Positions 11,961 through 59,684 of a DNA stretch of 59,684 bases are shown here, in pieces. The notes under the pieces were generated by a model that saw only the letters and a program-made list of their open reading frames with translations, had not been told where the DNA came from and did not search any database. This stretch comes from an uncultured bacterium (GTDB taxonomy: Bacteria > Desulfobacterota > GWC2-55-46): positions 1-59,684 of the forward strand of contig CAJPGC010000012.1 in the NCBI GenBank assembly GCA_905339405.1. Direction: 5' to 3'. The translations under genes and the position numbers were made by a program. Position 1 is the stretch's first letter; each line of letters opens with the position of its first letter.

Positions 11961-13321
11961 AGGAGATGCTCAGGGAAGCTGGCGCGGAGCGCGTCATAGA
12001 AAGACTCAAGAGCGGGCTTAAGGGCCGCGCCGAGTCGTTCGAGATATATTTTTCCTGCCAGAAGGGTTTCGGCGCCGACGCGAAAGAAGGCGAGGTAGAC
12101 TCCCTCAAGGTTCGCTCGAGCTCAGGTGTAGGCATAAGGACTATTTCCAAAGGCAGGCTCGGGTTCGCCTTCTCGAGCGTTCTGGAGGACGCGGTCCTGG
12201 ACGAGCTGGCGGCAAAGGCGCTCGCCGGGAGCCTTGAGGCTTCGGTCGACGAATTCCTGCGCCTCGCTACTCCTGGGGGACAGGCGCGCTCTGAAGAGGG
12301 GCTCGGCATATTCGACGAGGCGTACTTCAGCGTCCCTGAAGAAGAGAAGATAAAAAAGGCCATAGACATAGAAAAGGCCGCCCGCGGGTTTGACGGGCGG
12401 GTTAAGAGGATAAGGAAGGCCTCCTACTCGGAGTCGGTCACCGCCGACAGGGTCGTGAACTCCAACGGTGTCGACGCCTCCCATTCTGCGACCTATTTCA
12501 CCGGCAGCGTCACGGCGGTCGCCGAGGAAGGGAAGGAGTCGCAGATGGGCTGGGAGATGGGCATGGGGCATTCGATGTCAGCCATAGACCCGGCCTGGAT
12601 AGGCGAGGGCGCCGCTAGGAACGCGGTGAGGCTCCTTGGGGCCAGGGAGATAAAAACGGTCAAATGCGCGGCGGTAATAGAGAATACGGTCGCCTGCGAG
12701 CTCCTCGAGTCTCTGGCCAGCTCCTTTCTGGGCGACAACGTCGAGAAGGGCAAATCCATGCTCATAGGCCGTCTGGGGAAGAAAATCGCTTCTCCCGTGC
12801 TTAATATATTCGATGATGGTATAATGACTGGCGGTTGGGCGACTTCGGCTTATGACGCCGAGGGCACGGCAACCGCGAGGACCCCTCTCGTGCTGGAGGG
12901 CGTGTGCCAGGGATTCCTTTTTGACACGTACTGGGCAGCCAGGGCGGGGAAGGCCTCGACCGGGAACGCCGCCAGGGGCGGGTACAAATCGACTCCCGGG
13001 GTCGGGCTCAACAACATCTATATAGAAAAGGGCGGGAGAAGCTTCGAGGAGCTCTTGGGCGGCCTCGGCAAGGGGCTCTTCATAACGGAGCTCCTCGGCG
13101 TGCACACCATAAACACCGTGAGCGGGGACTTCTCCCTGGGCGCGGCCGGTTTCTGGATCGAGGGAGGCCGGATCGCCTATCCCGTGAGGGGCATGGCGAT
13201 AGCGGGGAACCTTCTCGGGCTTTTCTCAAAAATAGGGGCTTGCGGGTCAGACCTCAGATTCCTGGGGTCCATCGGCGCGCCGAGCCTCCTTGTAACCGAA
13301 GTAGAGGCGAGTGGGACATGA
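11957..13321 (+). CDS. tldE: TldE/PmbA family protein
   Basis: Partner subunit of the TldD-TldE protease that trims peptides such as microcin B17 leader or CcdA. The 454-residue length fits. The C-terminal block with GYKSTPGVGLNN, ELLGVHTINTVSGDFSLGA and GMAIAGNLLGL is the conserved core. No HExxH zinc motif is visible, as expected for TldE rather than the catalytic TldD. The frame is open upstream, but ATG 11957 overlaps the GNAT stop and starts MKEMLREAG, so I chose it. TldD is not in the window. Confidence 0.88.
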   Translation: MKEMLREAGAERVIERLKSGLKGRAESFEIYFSCQKGFGADAKEGEVDSLKVRSSSGVGIRTISKGRLGFAFSSVLEDAVLDELAAKALAGSLEASVDEFLRLATPGGQARSEEGLGIFDEAYFSVPEEEKIKKAIDIEKAARGFDGRVKRIRKASYSESVTADRVVNSNGVDASHSATYFTGSVTAVAEEGKESQMGWEMGMGHSMSAIDPAWIGEGAARNAVRLLGAREIKTVKCAAVIENTVACELLESLASSFLGDNVEKGKSMLIGRLGKKIASPVLNIFDDGIMTGGWATSAYDAEGTATARTPLVLEGVCQGFLFDTYWAARAGKASTGNAARGGYKSTPGVGLNNIYIEKGGRSFEELLGGLGKGLFITELLGVHTINTVSGDFSLGAAGFWIEGGRIAYPVRGMAIAGNLLGLFSKIGACGSDLRFLGSIGAPSLLVTEVEASGT

Positions 13322-14001
13322 TCGAGACGACTATCAAGGATGATCTGAAGAAAGTGGAGGAAGGACTTGCCCGCAACCAGCTTTTCACCGGGCTCGAGGA
13401 CTTCTACCGCAAGGGCATCATCTCCAGGGGCGAGGTGAGGACCTGGCCGGCCGGGACCCAGATAATAACAGAGGGCGACCCAGGGGACGCGGTCTTCTTC
13501 ATAATATCCGGCAGGGTCAAGGTGACGCTCTACGGCGAGGAAGGCCGGGAGATAGTCCTGGCCATCCTGAACGATGGCGACATGTTCGGCGAGATGTCGA
13601 TAATAGACGACAAGCCCCGCTCTGCCAACGTCGAGGCTGTCCAGGACCTGCAGTGCCTTGTCGTGACCAAGGGCGCTTTCCTCGACTATATGTCCCGCCA
13701 CCACAAAGTATACATGAGGTTTTTCGCCTACCTTACCGGCAGGCTCAGGGAGGCCACGAGGAAAATAGGCGGGCTTGCCCTACTGGACGTCTGCGGAAGG
13801 ATAGCCCATACCCTTCTCGGCATGGCCAGGGCCGCTGGAACCGACAAGGAAGTCGTCGAGATAGAAAGGCCGACCCACGAGCAGCTCGCCGCCATGATAG
13901 GCTCCTCAAGGGAGGTAGTGAGCAGGGCATTGAAGAAGATGACACAGGAAGGCTACATTAAGATAGAAAAGGACAGGATACTGCTTTACATCTCGGAGTA
14001 G
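13318..14001 (+). CDS. Crp/Fnr-family transcription regulator
   Basis: A 227-residue regulator. An N-terminal cyclic-nucleotide-type beta-barrel covers about residues 20-140 and keeps the phosphate-binding pattern GEMSIIDDKPRSANVEA. A long dimer helix follows, then a winged HTH in which EQLAAMIGSSREVVSRALKKM is the recognition region. No N-terminal cysteine cluster is seen, so it is not an FNR-type oxygen sensor; a cyclic nucleotide is the likely ligand. The ATG overlaps the tldE stop (ATGA), so it is expressed with that operon. Nearby regulated genes could include narK and the mini-proteins on the other strand, but no binding site was confirmed. Confidence 0.9.
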   Translation: MIETTIKDDLKKVEEGLARNQLFTGLEDFYRKGIISRGEVRTWPAGTQIITEGDPGDAVFFIISGRVKVTLYGEEGREIVLAILNDGDMFGEMSIIDDKPRSANVEAVQDLQCLVVTKGAFLDYMSRHHKVYMRFFAYLTGRLREATRKIGGLALLDVCGRIAHTLLGMARAAGTDKEVVEIERPTHEQLAAMIGSSREVVSRALKKMTQEGYIKIEKDRILLYISE

Positions 14002-14041
14002 AGCCGCCCGTAGTCGCGGGCCGGTCTAAATAAAAATTAAA

Positions 14042-14073
14042 AGGCTCTCAGGGTTTCCCCTGGGAGCCTTTTT
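14042..14073. terminator. bidirectional terminator between crp/fnr and the mini-protein unit
   Basis: Twelve-base stem AGGCTCTCAGGG (14042-14053) with CCCTGGGAGCCT (14058-14069), one mismatch and a 4-base loop. A T run follows on the plus strand and an A run precedes it, so it can end both the crp/fnr operon and minus-strand transcripts. Confidence 0.85.
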
Positions 14074-14186: not shown

Positions 14187-14273
14187 TTAAAAAACTGCTA
14201 TCACTATAGCCAGGGTAGCCATCACGGACACATGGGCGATGACATCGAGTATTCCGTATTCTGCTTTCTTCAT
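14187..14273 (-). CDS. 28-residue hydrophobic mini-protein 1
   Basis: Small open frame missed by usual length cutoffs. It begins MKKAEYGILDVIA and ends VMATLAIVIAVF, with the C-terminal half a single predicted membrane helix. AGGGAGG lies 7 bases before the ATG. Its twin at 14375-14458 has the same EYGILDVIA core and a near-identical hydrophobic tail, and both end VIAVF then TAA. The pair differs by many synonymous changes, which suggests selection on the protein. It lies between crp/fnr and narK. I do not recognise the family. A role as a small membrane-complex subunit or regulator is only a guess. Confidence 0.75.
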   Translation of the reverse strand: MKKAEYGILDVIAHVSVMATLAIVIAVF

Positions 14274-14374
14274 CTGGGTTCCCTCCCTTTGAGTGTCTGT
14301 TCGCCTCACGCCCCCGCATGGTAACAGGTGCGGCTTTCTTGCCGATGTGCCCTGGGGCACAACCCGGCTGACCC

Positions 14375-14458
14375 TTAAAAAACCGCTATCACGACCGCCA
14401 GTGTGGCCATTACTGCCAGGTTTGCTATTACGTCTAGAATTCCGTATTCGGGCTTCAT
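14375..14458 (-). CDS. 27-residue hydrophobic mini-protein 2
   Basis: Paralogue of the frame at 14187-14273, about 100 bases upstream in the same transcript direction. It starts MKPEYGILDVIA and ends VMATLAVVIAVF. GGAGGA (complement of 14466-14471) sits 7 bases before the ATG, a strong ribosome site. About 20 of 27 positions match the twin. Codons differ at conserved residues (for example Ile ATA versus ATT, Leu CTC versus CTA), so this is not a fresh duplication. One membrane span is predicted, with a short charged N-terminus (K2, E4, D9). Confidence 0.75.
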   Translation of the reverse strand: MKPEYGILDVIANLAVMATLAVVIAVF

Positions 14459-14591
14459 AGGGGCATCCTCCATTTTAAGAGAGTTCCTTAACATGCGTCC
14501 ATGATAGCACCGTCAATATTAATTGAGGATTAGAGGCGGACCGGGGCGATTTTGTTCGAAAAAATGGAGAGTATCGTCTGTTTTTGGGCGC

Positions 14592-14630
14592 AAAAAAAGC
14601 CAGCAGGGCCTTTTATTCGACCCTGCTGGC
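14592..14630 (-). terminator. terminator of the narK transcript
   Basis: Perfect 10-bp stem GCCAGCAGGG (14599-14608) with CCCTGCTGGC (14621-14630). On the minus strand a T7 tail follows. It sits 42 bases past the narK stop and also insulates the mini-protein unit from narK read-through. Confidence 0.9.
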
Positions 14631-14671: not shown

Positions 14672-16162
14672 CTAGTGCGCTCCGCTGTTCCCTTCTCTTT
14701 CAATTTCACGGTCGACGGAGGAGACATGGTATTCCTCGGCGAACCCTCCCTTGGGCTCCTTGAGCATGATGAGGCAGAAGATGAAGCTCAAGAAGGCTCC
14801 TGCCGCTATTATGTAGAAGAACTGGTTAGCCGTCACAAAGGTATAGATGAACAGGTAGAAGACCGCGCCCACGTTGCCGTACGCGCCGGCCATTCCTGAT
14901 ATCTGCCCGGTAAGACGCCTTTTAATCGACGGGATTATGCCGAAGGTCGCGCCTTCCGCTCCCTGGACGAACATCGAGCAGGCGACCGTCACGAGGGTCG
15001 CAAGCGCTATCGGCCAGGCGGAGTTCATCAGCGCCATCAGGAAAAACCCTACGGCGATGCCCAGCATGTAGAACATCATTATTCTTTTCCTGCTGTTGAA
15101 CCTGTCTGAAACCCAGCCTCCCAGAGGCCTGGCGAACAGGTTGACGAAGGCGAAGGACGCGGCTATCATGCCCGCCGCTGCCGGAGTCAGTGTCCATACG
15201 GACTCGAAGAACGCGGGGAGCATCGATACGACGGCGAGCTCTGCGCCGAAGTTGGCGAAGTAGGTCGCGTTCAGGGCCGCTACCGAGCTGAAGGGGTACT
15301 TGTCGTCCTCGGGGACGCCTTTTTTGAGTATCGGCAGGTTGACGCGCAGTATCTGTATTATCTGGTAGAGGACGACCGCCGCTATGACGGCGTAGGAGAT
15401 GTAAGCCCCGGTCATGGTTATGTAGCCGGCGGTCTGTATCCTCCATACCAGTATCGATAGTATGCCTACCGTCGGTATCGTCCATACGATGAGCTGGATC
15501 ATGTCGCCCCAGGTGCTGACTTCGAGGGCGGCAACCTTTCTGGGCTTTACATGGACCGAGCCCTTTGGGCCATCGGTTATCGCGAACCAGTAGAAAACGC
15601 CGTAGGCCATCATGAAGACGCAGCTGAAGGCTATCGCGTATCTCCAGCCGTTCTCTCCTCCGAAGACGAGGGCGGCTATCGTCGGCAGGACTATGGCCGC
15701 GCCGGCGGAGCCGAAGTTGCCCCAGCCCGCGTAGAAGCCTTCAGCGAAACCTATGTCCCTCGGCTTGAACCAGAGCGCGGTCATGTGGATGCCGACGACG
15801 AAGCTCGCGCCTATGGAGCTCAGGACGAGACGGGAGACGAGGAGCTGGGAGAGCGTGTTGCCGAAGGCGAAAAACAGGCCCGGTATGCCGCAGAGCACCA
15901 TGAGTATGGCAAAGACCCTGCGCGGCCCGTATTTGTCGAGGGCCATGCCTGTAAGAAGCCTGGCCGGGATGGTCAGGGCGACGTTGCAGATGGCGATTAT
16001 CTTGAGGTCCTTTGCCGTGAGCCAGCCGTTGTACTTGAGCATCGTCGTGGCCAGCGGGGCCATGTTGAACCAGACGAAAAAGCTGATGAAGAAAGCTATC
16101 CAGGTAAGGTGCAGAGCCCTTATCTCCGGATTTCTGTATTTGAATAGATCTGAAACCTGCAT
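14672..16162 (-). CDS. narK: NarK-type nitrate/nitrite MFS transporter
   Basis: A 496-residue major-facilitator protein with about 12 membrane spans. The nitrate-signature glycine-rich motifs are visible as GFAEGFYAGWGNFGSAGAAI in the first half and SGMAGAYGNVGAV in the second. MFS loop motif LTGMALDKYGPRRVF lies between spans 2 and 3. AGGAGG lies just before the ATG. Uptake of nitrate or export of nitrite across the inner membrane is the family role. No nitrate or nitrite reductase lies in the window. A uspA-like gene directly upstream on the same strand suggests a stress or anaerobic unit. Confidence 0.87.
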   Translation of the reverse strand: MQVSDLFKYRNPEIRALHLTWIAFFISFFVWFNMAPLATTMLKYNGWLTAKDLKIIAICNVALTIPARLLTGMALDKYGPRRVFAILMVLCGIPGLFFAFGNTLSQLLVSRLVLSSIGASFVVGIHMTALWFKPRDIGFAEGFYAGWGNFGSAGAAIVLPTIAALVFGGENGWRYAIAFSCVFMMAYGVFYWFAITDGPKGSVHVKPRKVAALEVSTWGDMIQLIVWTIPTVGILSILVWRIQTAGYITMTGAYISYAVIAAVVLYQIIQILRVNLPILKKGVPEDDKYPFSSVAALNATYFANFGAELAVVSMLPAFFESVWTLTPAAAGMIAASFAFVNLFARPLGGWVSDRFNSRKRIMMFYMLGIAVGFFLMALMNSAWPIALATLVTVACSMFVQGAEGATFGIIPSIKRRLTGQISGMAGAYGNVGAVFYLFIYTFVTANQFFYIIAAGAFLSFIFCLIMLKEPKGGFAEEYHVSSVDREIEREGNSGAH

Positions 16163-44729: not shown

Positions 44730-45176
44730 ATGGACATTAAGGATATAAAGAACATATACAAGTTCCTGAGGGAGACCGACATAGTCGAGTTCGAGCTCGA
44801 AGGGCCGGACGGCAAGGTAAGGCTGAAAAGAGGGAACGCCTACGCCGTCAGGGAAGCAATGCCGGTCGAGTCCCTGGAGCCCAGGGAGGCCCCGAAGGAA
44901 GCGAAAAAAGAGGAGCCAGCGCCTGTAACGAAGGCGGACAATGTCAAGGTCGTCACCTCCCCTATGGTAGGCACCTTCTACCGTTCGCCTTCCCCGGAGG
45001 CGGCCTCTTTCGTCGAGGTGGGCAGCGTGGTGAAGCCCGCGCAGACGCTGTGCATCATAGAGGCGATGAAGCTCATGAACGAGATCGAATCCGACCAGGC
45101 GGGGGTGATCAAAGCTGTTCTGGTCGAGAATGGCCAGCCTGTGGAGTACGGCCAGCCCTTGTTCCTGATCGCCTAG
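44730..45176 (+). CDS. accB: biotin carboxyl carrier protein, chimeric between two genomes
   Basis: Carries biotin for acetyl-CoA carboxylase. The 148-residue frame is intact. An N-terminal helix [14 protein letters not shown] and an Ala/Pro/Glu linker lead to the biotinyl domain with [14 protein letters not shown] and biotin-Lys114 in [10 protein letters not shown]. Codon use changes inside it. Up to Ile110 (ATA at 45057-45059) it follows the left genome; the last third (residues ~125-148, ending [11 protein letters not shown]) follows the right. The protein would be functional. The following accC belongs to the right genome. Confidence 0.85.
45060..45110. other. likely assembly junction between two genomes
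   Basis: Left of here, Ile is mostly ATA and Arg mostly AGG, and intergenic hairpin repeats of one family occur. Right of here, Ile is almost always ATC and Arg CGC or CGT, and gene order is betaproteobacterial. The break falls in the segment coding the invariant [10 protein letters not shown] motif, where unrelated genomes can share a long identical stretch, as expected of an assembly join. Confidence 0.75.
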
Positions 45177-58435: not shown

Positions 58436-59684
58436 TCAAGTCCGCAGCTCTCCACTGCCCAACACCACCCACTTCTGGCTGGTGAGCCCCTCCAGGCCCA
58501 CCGGACCGCGGGCGTGAATTTTGTCGGTGGAGATGCCGATTTCGGCCCCCAGGCCGTACTCGAAGCCGTCGGCGAATCGCGTCGAGGCATTGACCATAAC
58601 CGAGGCGGAATCCACTTCGCGCAGGAAGCGGCGGGCGCGGGCATAGTCGTCCGTGACGATGCAGTCGGTGTGCTGCGAGCCAAACGCGTTGATGTGCTCG
58701 ATGGCCTCATCGATGCCGGGCACGGTGCTGATGGCCACGATGGGCGCGAGAAATTCGGTGCGGAAATCCGCTTCGGTCGCGGCGATCACTTTGGGAATGC
58801 CGGCGACTTCGAGAATGGTGCGCGACTCAGGGCAACAACGCATTTCCACACCTTTGTCGGCGTAGATTTTGCCGAGCTTGGGCAGGAAGTAGCAGGCTAC
58901 CGCCTGCGCCACCAGCAGCGACTCCATGGTGTTGCAGGTGCCATAACGCTGAGTCTTGGCGTTGTCGGCGATGGCGAGCGCCATCTCGAGATCGGCGCGC
59001 TCGTCCACGTAGACATGGCAAATGCCGTCGAGGTGCTTGATCACCGGCACGCGCGCTTCGCGGCTGATGCGCTCGATCAGGCTCTTGCCGCCGCGCGGTA
59101 CGATCACGTCGACGAATTCCGGCATGGTGATGAGCGCGCCCACCGCGGCGCGATCAGGGGTGTCGACCACTTGCACGCAGGTCTCCGGCAGTCCAGCCGC
59201 GGCGAGCCCTTCGCGCACGCAGGCGGCGATGGCCTGGTTGCAGCGCAGCGCTTCCGAACCGCCCCGCAAAATGGCCGCGTTGCCGGCCTTGAGGCACAAG
59301 GCGGCGGCATCGGCGGTGACATTGGGGCGCGCCTCGTAAATGATGCCGATCACGCCCAGAGGCACGCGCATCTTGCCCACCTGGATGCCCGAAGGCCGCA
59401 GCTTGAGATCGGTGATTTCGCCCACCGGGTCGGGCAGGCGCGCCACTTGCCGCAAGCCTTCGGCGATCGCGGCCACCCCTTTGGAATTCAGGGTCAGGCG
59501 GTCGAGCAGGGCCGCGTCCAGCCCCGCGGCGCGGGCGGCGGCAAGATCTTGCGCATTGGCCGCAAGTAGTGCCTGCTCCTCGCGCTCGATGGCGTTCGCC
59601 ATGGCGAGGAGTGCCGCGTCTTTCTTGCGGGTATCGGCGCGTGCCAGTTCGCGCGAGGCGGCGCGGGCGCGGCGGCCGAGTTCC
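58436..59684 (-). CDS. proA: gamma-glutamyl phosphate reductase (N-terminus cut by window edge)
   Basis: Reduces glutamyl-5-phosphate to the semialdehyde in proline synthesis. The frame is open through the right edge, reading [20 protein letters not shown], so only about the first ten residues are missing. The ATG at 59602 is internal. Motifs are [34 protein letters not shown] and the catalytic Cys in [14 protein letters not shown]. The end has [19 protein letters not shown]. proB is not seen. Confidence 0.95.

Follow-up and report, generated by a model that had tools for sequence, protein, structure and literature searches.

Two tandem mini-ORFs on the minus strand of the 59,684-nt stretch of DNA analyzed here (the window) are, as far as sequence can tell, two members of one micropeptide regulon. 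They appear to belong to an undescribed set of membrane peptides of ∼25–40 residues scattered through groundwater 'Deltaproteobacteria' genomes. That a micropeptide regulon under a common promoter box exists in these organisms is, in our judgement, very likely, and an OmpR-type response regulator, here termed RR-A, is probably its activator. Our best explanation of the whole, held with moderate confidence, is that the peptides are outputs of an RR-A two-component stress regulon and modulate membrane proteins.

Two mini-ORFs with the marks of genes

Micropeptide a (27 aa, MKPEYGILDVIANLAVMATLAVVIAVF) is encoded at positions 14375-14458 and micropeptide b (28 aa, MKKAEYGILDVIAHVSVMATLAIVIAVF) at positions 14187-14273, both read as ORFs on the minus strand, where an earlier note on this DNA had placed them. 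The Shine-Dalgarno (SD) sequences upstream, GGAGG for a and GGGAGG for b, are both of the GGAGG type and normally spaced (a, AAAATGGAGGATGCCCCT-ATG; b, CAAAGGGAGGGAACCCAG-ATG), which bears out the note's claim that each ORF has its own strong ribosome site. Over the 24 aligned codons, which begin at EYGILD and run to the final residue, a and b differ at 18 bases, distributed as 4, 0 and 14 over codon positions 1, 2 and 3, a pattern far from chance. Nine of these codons are identical, 11 have changed synonymously and 4 change the residue; with 11 synonymous against 4 replacement codons and second positions unchanged, the earlier reading of the synonymous differences as a sign of selection holds. 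For the set of three sequences comprising a, b and the homologue in genome G001, pN/pS is 0.23. A search with the family alignment as query matched peptide a at E = 7.2e-16, a itself being part of that alignment. By these measures, a and b look like real genes.

The a-b unit is bounded by terminators on both sides, as the note had it, and both hairpins were seen by direct reading. One, at 14592-14630 on the minus strand (GCCAGCAGGG...CCCTGCTGGC-TTTTTTT), follows narK and separates it from the peptide promoter; it is absent from our terminator scan because its loop is too long for the scan. The other, the terminator of the a-b unit itself, lies at 14031-14070 on the minus strand (AAGGCTCCCAGGG-GAAA-CCCTGAGAGCCTT-TTAATTTTT). 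Part of it was listed by the scan in plus-strand form, and it could also be used by crp/fnr in the opposite orientation.

The flanking ORFs encode a NarK-type transporter (14672-16162, minus strand) and a converging Crp/Fnr-type regulator (13240-14001, plus strand); these names, like dinB, ubiE, lexA and helicase below, come from sequence reading. The idea that these two neighbors, pointed out in the earlier note, define the system is not supported, given the terminator behind narK, the peptides' own promoter and the homologues beside unrelated genes, and the link of the peptides to narK and Crp looks incidental. On present evidence, the NarK-type transporter lies outside the regulon. A narK-type neighbor is also present at the counterpart locus in G001 (L003), with a single peptide copy downstream of narK. 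Hence, the description of the peptides as twins fits the two copies in the window and understates the family, which has one copy at the G001 locus and many more members elsewhere. The homologues appear to be united instead by a common promoter and probably also by a common two-component regulator.

Searched over its whole length, the window gave no Rfam match at gathering thresholds. From about position 45000 to its end at 59684, GC content climbs from ∼0.59 to 0.60-0.67, and near 45-46 kb, within an accC-like gene, a positive GC skew gives way to a mostly negative one. The genes downstream of this change (prmA-like, glnA, DUF4124-like and ntrB/ntrC-like) look gamma/betaproteobacterial, and the contig may be a chimera.

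A promoter box that predicts micropeptides

A common motif, [CT]TAAT-N6-[CT]TAAT-N10/11-TATAATGG, lies upstream of the peptides. In the window, the putative operator/promoter of a occupies 14499-14533 on the minus strand (CTAAT-N6-TTAAT, with the -10 element TATCAT 11 bp further on; CTAATCCTCAATTAATATTGACGGTGCTATCATGG). Its repeats have an 11-bp period, it departs from the regulon pattern by one mismatch, and it lies 40 nt upstream of peptide a. Upstream of peptide b, no box of its own was found; b is probably cotranscribed with a.

The strict pattern occurs at three sites in the window's genome (G000), with no match for the control, and all three lead to micropeptides that earlier sequence-similarity searches had missed there. 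With up to one mismatch allowed, the 30 genomes of the family contain 70 box sites, versus 0 for the reversed-pattern control. Of the 69 readable sites, 52 are followed within 95 nt by an SD and a single-span transmembrane micropeptide of 23-44 aa; part of this number is to be expected, since it was upstream of peptides that the box first drew attention. Independent tests are provided by the own-genome predictions and by the boxes that other families of the class contain (G034, G040, G044 and G060). Random positions lead to an SD and micropeptide in 111 of 20000 cases (0.55%; 10-70 nt range), a rate measured in the same loci and thus in sequence enriched for micropeptides. For TATAAT without a box, the proportion is 3/313, and two of these three carry degenerate boxes.

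Scanning 257 Gb of genome sequence with the promoter pattern gave 14 matches, of which 13 fall in groundwater 'Deltaproteobacteria' MAGs (GWA2_55_10 and GWB2_55_19 among them). All 13 precede micropeptides; one stretch (L075) stops inside its peptide, and the same peptide is complete in L043. The remaining match is archaeal, has no micropeptide behind it and was taken as chance. Viral contigs gave no promoter match, and plasmids gave no DNA match.

Behind other box sites come TlpA- and CcdA-like genes, a sensor kinase gene or apparently noncoding units. Boxes of the RR-A type also precede TlpA-like genes and occur in the ApbE locus (L127, L099, L218, L219), which suggests a redox/envelope theme. 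At L088, L096 and L126, what follows the box appears to be noncoding, with prmC-like genes alongside; the gene upstream at L088 is that of L044 (G005), where a micropeptide is present, and these units are possibly decayed copies or small RNAs. Another box-driven, apparently noncoding unit, consisting of CCTGGGGTACTCCTTTCCACAAGTTAAAGCG plus a terminator, is conserved in three genomes (G000:C7:77434-77600, corresponding to L111 1000-1170; L055; L109). Its CTCCTTTCC stretch could pair with SD sequences.

Spread, arrangement and selection of the peptides

When a profile built from the first seven relatives was searched against the order, homologues turned up in no taxonomic family other than the window's own. 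There they occur in many genomes, mostly MAGs, often in several copies per genome, with at least 13 such peptides listed in G000; the matched frames are open and free of stops. The outcome that the earlier note had named as a refutation, a lack of homologues in relatives or frames that are broken, therefore did not arise. Ten of the micropeptides were compared with Pfam and NCBIfam and none matched at E≤5, in line with the earlier statement that no family with this signature was known.

In the neighborhoods that we read, tandem arrays comprise 2-7 units, mostly of 23-45 residues, each unit with its own SD. Such peptides recur near ubiE, between or beside dinB and a DEAD-box helicase gene, at ApbE/DUF3570, next to ANTAR regulators, near narK, and in an RND-efflux region that is followed by a PAS-AAA-Fis sigma54 activator. 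Direct reading shows a sigma54-like TTGGCACG-N4-TTGTA upstream of several arrays of the RND-efflux region. Sigma54-like promoters precede micropeptide operons ahead of the PAS-sigma54 activator gene at L052, L053, L056, L046 and L050, possibly as a second control layer. Genomes G026 and G044, which represent different families, both have five-peptide arrays ahead of a DEAD-box helicase gene, and these arrays hold clearly related members (e.g. GLFEILATAANLTAVLLLSKVII and GLFEIMATAANLVAVLLISRVII).

Computed pN/pS values range from 0.04 to 0.45 and thus lie below 0.5 in all 16 ortholog or paralog groups measured; judged by these ratios, the micropeptides are under purifying selection. In the best-aligned subfamily, an acidic residue (E/D) is present in 24/24 sequences and an A and an L in 22/24 each. 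Ala, Leu and Ala/Ser are nearly invariant at positions +3, +5 and +6 from the acidic residue, and small residues repeat with a helical period of 3-4 residues. The span has the conserved acidic residue at its start, followed by heptad-like small residues (A, A/S, T, S/A, A), which suggests docking on other membrane helices. We also considered a light-harvesting-like histidine ligand and rejected it, as half of the sequences have N at the position in question and 7/24 have H.

A candidate regulator

The lead to RR-A was a box site in G005 just behind a sensor kinase gene whose partner regulator is of the OmpR type. In the window's genome, RR-A is encoded at G000:C1:24722-25390, adjacent to a heavy-metal-type sensor kinase; the regulator has Response_reg and Trans_reg_C domains and the kinase HisKA, HATPase_c and HAMP domains. 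The operon reads (PepSY-)cytochrome b561-RR-HK, the PepSY-like gene being present in some families. Orthologues at ≥79% identity occur in 21 of the 30 family genomes, and RR-A-like genes in 39 of 63 genomes of the class. Of 30 RR-A/kinase loci, 26 contain the box, versus an average of 0.1 for Markov-shuffled loci; in most, it precedes the operon immediately, follows the kinase gene, or does both. Since the same box flanks its operon in this many loci, RR-A is the likely activator.

Co-occurrence points the same way. Across the 63 genomes, 29 have both box and RR-A, 10 have RR-A only, 6 have the box only and 18 have neither (P = 2e-4, with phylogeny ignored). Five of six genomes of genus g6 are without RR-A and without a box-driven peptide at this stringency, and the sixth has both. 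In G060, G054 and G010, the RR-A operon has micropeptides immediately ahead of it. Counting against RR-A are three genomes with box-driven micropeptides and no RR-A match, namely G012, which is rated complete (at least one stretch reads N), and G015 and G021, which are fragmented or incomplete. Also counting against it are G011, G018, G020 and G022, which have RR-A without a box-driven micropeptide at this stringency. The proposal as a whole is further weakened by the single mismatch in the window's box, by the want of a separate box for peptide b and by the diversity of the sites.

The best NCBIfam matches of RR-A (TIGR01387, 266.4 bits) and of the kinase (TIGR01386, 274.6 bits) fall just under the respective cut-offs of 279.2 and 292.55. 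Because both proteins fall short of these heavy-metal models, metal or envelope stress as the inducing signal is a guess. RR-A scores 188.5 bits against the PmrA model NF007928 (cut-off 330), and hence we say that it may work like PmrA rather than being a member of that family. PhoB was also considered and rejected; RR-A reaches 196.7 bits against a cut-off of 296.2, and no good box lies near phoU in G005 (L139).

Discussion

In the mechanism that we propose, RR-A would bind the direct repeats [CT]TAAT-N6-[CT]TAAT, which would replace the -35 element. Besides its own operon and a small number of redox/envelope genes, it would thereby activate single-span micropeptides by the dozen, each encoded separately (at least 13 in G000). 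Each micropeptide, once made, would insert as one transmembrane helix and, like PmrR on LpxT, modulate its partners, presumably kinases, transporters, and respiratory or envelope enzymes, under stress. We infer that the peptides are helix-docking modulators acting under metal or envelope stress because the half-sites and their spacing resemble those of PmrA and BqsR, PmrR is a precedent, and membrane peptides can activate PmrB; this part of the proposal is tentative.

Some of the same evidence would fit feedback or connector peptides of the MgrB/SafA kind, acting mainly on the inducing kinase and on other regulators. All of the peptides lie under what is likely the kinase's own operator, they adjoin the RR-A operon in the three genomes named above, and many adjoin other regulators. 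Moreover, selection from random sequences has given hydrophobic transmembrane peptides that can activate PmrB (PMC7790251). However, at least 13 different peptides in one genome exceed what simple feedback would need, and we consider this reading unlikely.

We give somewhat less credence to the idea that the peptides resemble type I toxins, that is, stress-induced helices that depolarize the membrane and are kept in check by an RNA. Their size, single span and tandem copies fit, tandem copies being known for toxins of the ldr/ibs and tisB/dinQ types. One array lies between dinB and the DEAD-box helicase gene, near lexA-like genes, and G000, G001 and G002 carry beside the dinB/helicase array a conserved, box-driven, apparently noncoding and sRNA-like unit with an anti-SD CTCCTTTCCAC and a terminator. 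Such an anti-SD stretch could, however, pair with any SD, and the SDs of the peptides look strong. Two families retain the same kinds of array, with distinct subfamilies (L121, L221), the ortholog groups are under purifying selection, and the acidic residue, together with the face of small residues, has the look of specific docking; all of this speaks against a toxin.

Lower again we place the possibility that the peptides are accessory subunits of particular neighbors, in the manner of CydX, AcrZ or KdpF, for example of NarK in the window's genus. It is true that peptides have narK-type genes as neighbors twice in G000 (in the window and on C28), with counterparts in G001. Yet narK terminates before the peptide promoter, the promoter is common to the set, and homologues sit beside the unrelated ubiE, ApbE, ANTAR and dinB genes. 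Chance ORFs in conserved regulatory RNA or promoter-rich intergenic DNA, a thought invited by the tiny size of the peptides and by their being known here from sequence alone, can be dismissed almost entirely in view of the 4/0/14 codon-position pattern, the low pN/pS in 16/16 groups, the SDs, and the frames that stay open in all homologues found.

The RR-A stress regulon of membrane-protein modulators can be put in a broader form, which we offer with reserve. Throughout the class, a single two-component system would act chiefly by producing many and varied single-span micropeptides, part of them encoded in conserved tandem arrays. Under stress, these would assemble with one another or dock on many membrane proteins and so re-tune the inner membrane. 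This would have no described counterpart; a search of the open-access literature found no micropeptide regulon of this kind. Gene callers routinely miss short membrane peptides, and the promoter box described here predicts them. The box yields peptides for testing by the dozen, along with a single candidate regulator, and suggests that a stress regulon may consist largely of micropeptides. What such peptides do could be approached by knocking out that one regulator or through one inducing signal.

Comparison with known systems

Small subunits such as CydX sit in the operon of their enzyme, whereas the peptides described here have their own promoter, flanking terminators and, elsewhere, diverse neighbors. 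The type I toxins TisB, DinQ, Ldr and Ibs are short single-span peptides linked to stress, some of them in tandem; the present peptides differ in their conserved distinct subfamilies and common two-component-type operator. CzcR/CopR and CzcS/CopS (TIGR01387, TIGR01386) are the best family matches of RR-A and its kinase, yet below the curated cut-offs, and the RR-A operon differs from theirs in carrying cytochrome b561 and, in some families, a PepSY-like gene.

BqsR recognizes TTAAG(N)6TTAAG, and BqsR/BqsS (CarRS) of Pseudomonas responds to Fe(II) (PMC4682146). The box here has the same 11-bp period and TAA core, although its half-site is [CT]TAAT and not TTAAG. We know of no micropeptide regulon under BqsR/BqsS.

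Like the system proposed here, PmrA/PmrB (BasRS) combines an OmpR-type regulator and an adjacent kinase with a box-driven membrane peptide. The PmrA box consists of tandem half-sites, XTTAAT/CTTAAG-like, 5 bp apart (PMC3973317), and the same arrangement emerges from counts over our 52 sites, with half-sites that also tolerate CTAAT. PmrB belongs to an Fe3+-responsive system, and PmrR, a small peptide of the inner membrane under the control of a PmrA box, inhibits LpxT (PMC8129183). PmrR is one peptide with one known target, whereas here, in another lineage, there are at least 13 different peptides in one genome, often in arrays.
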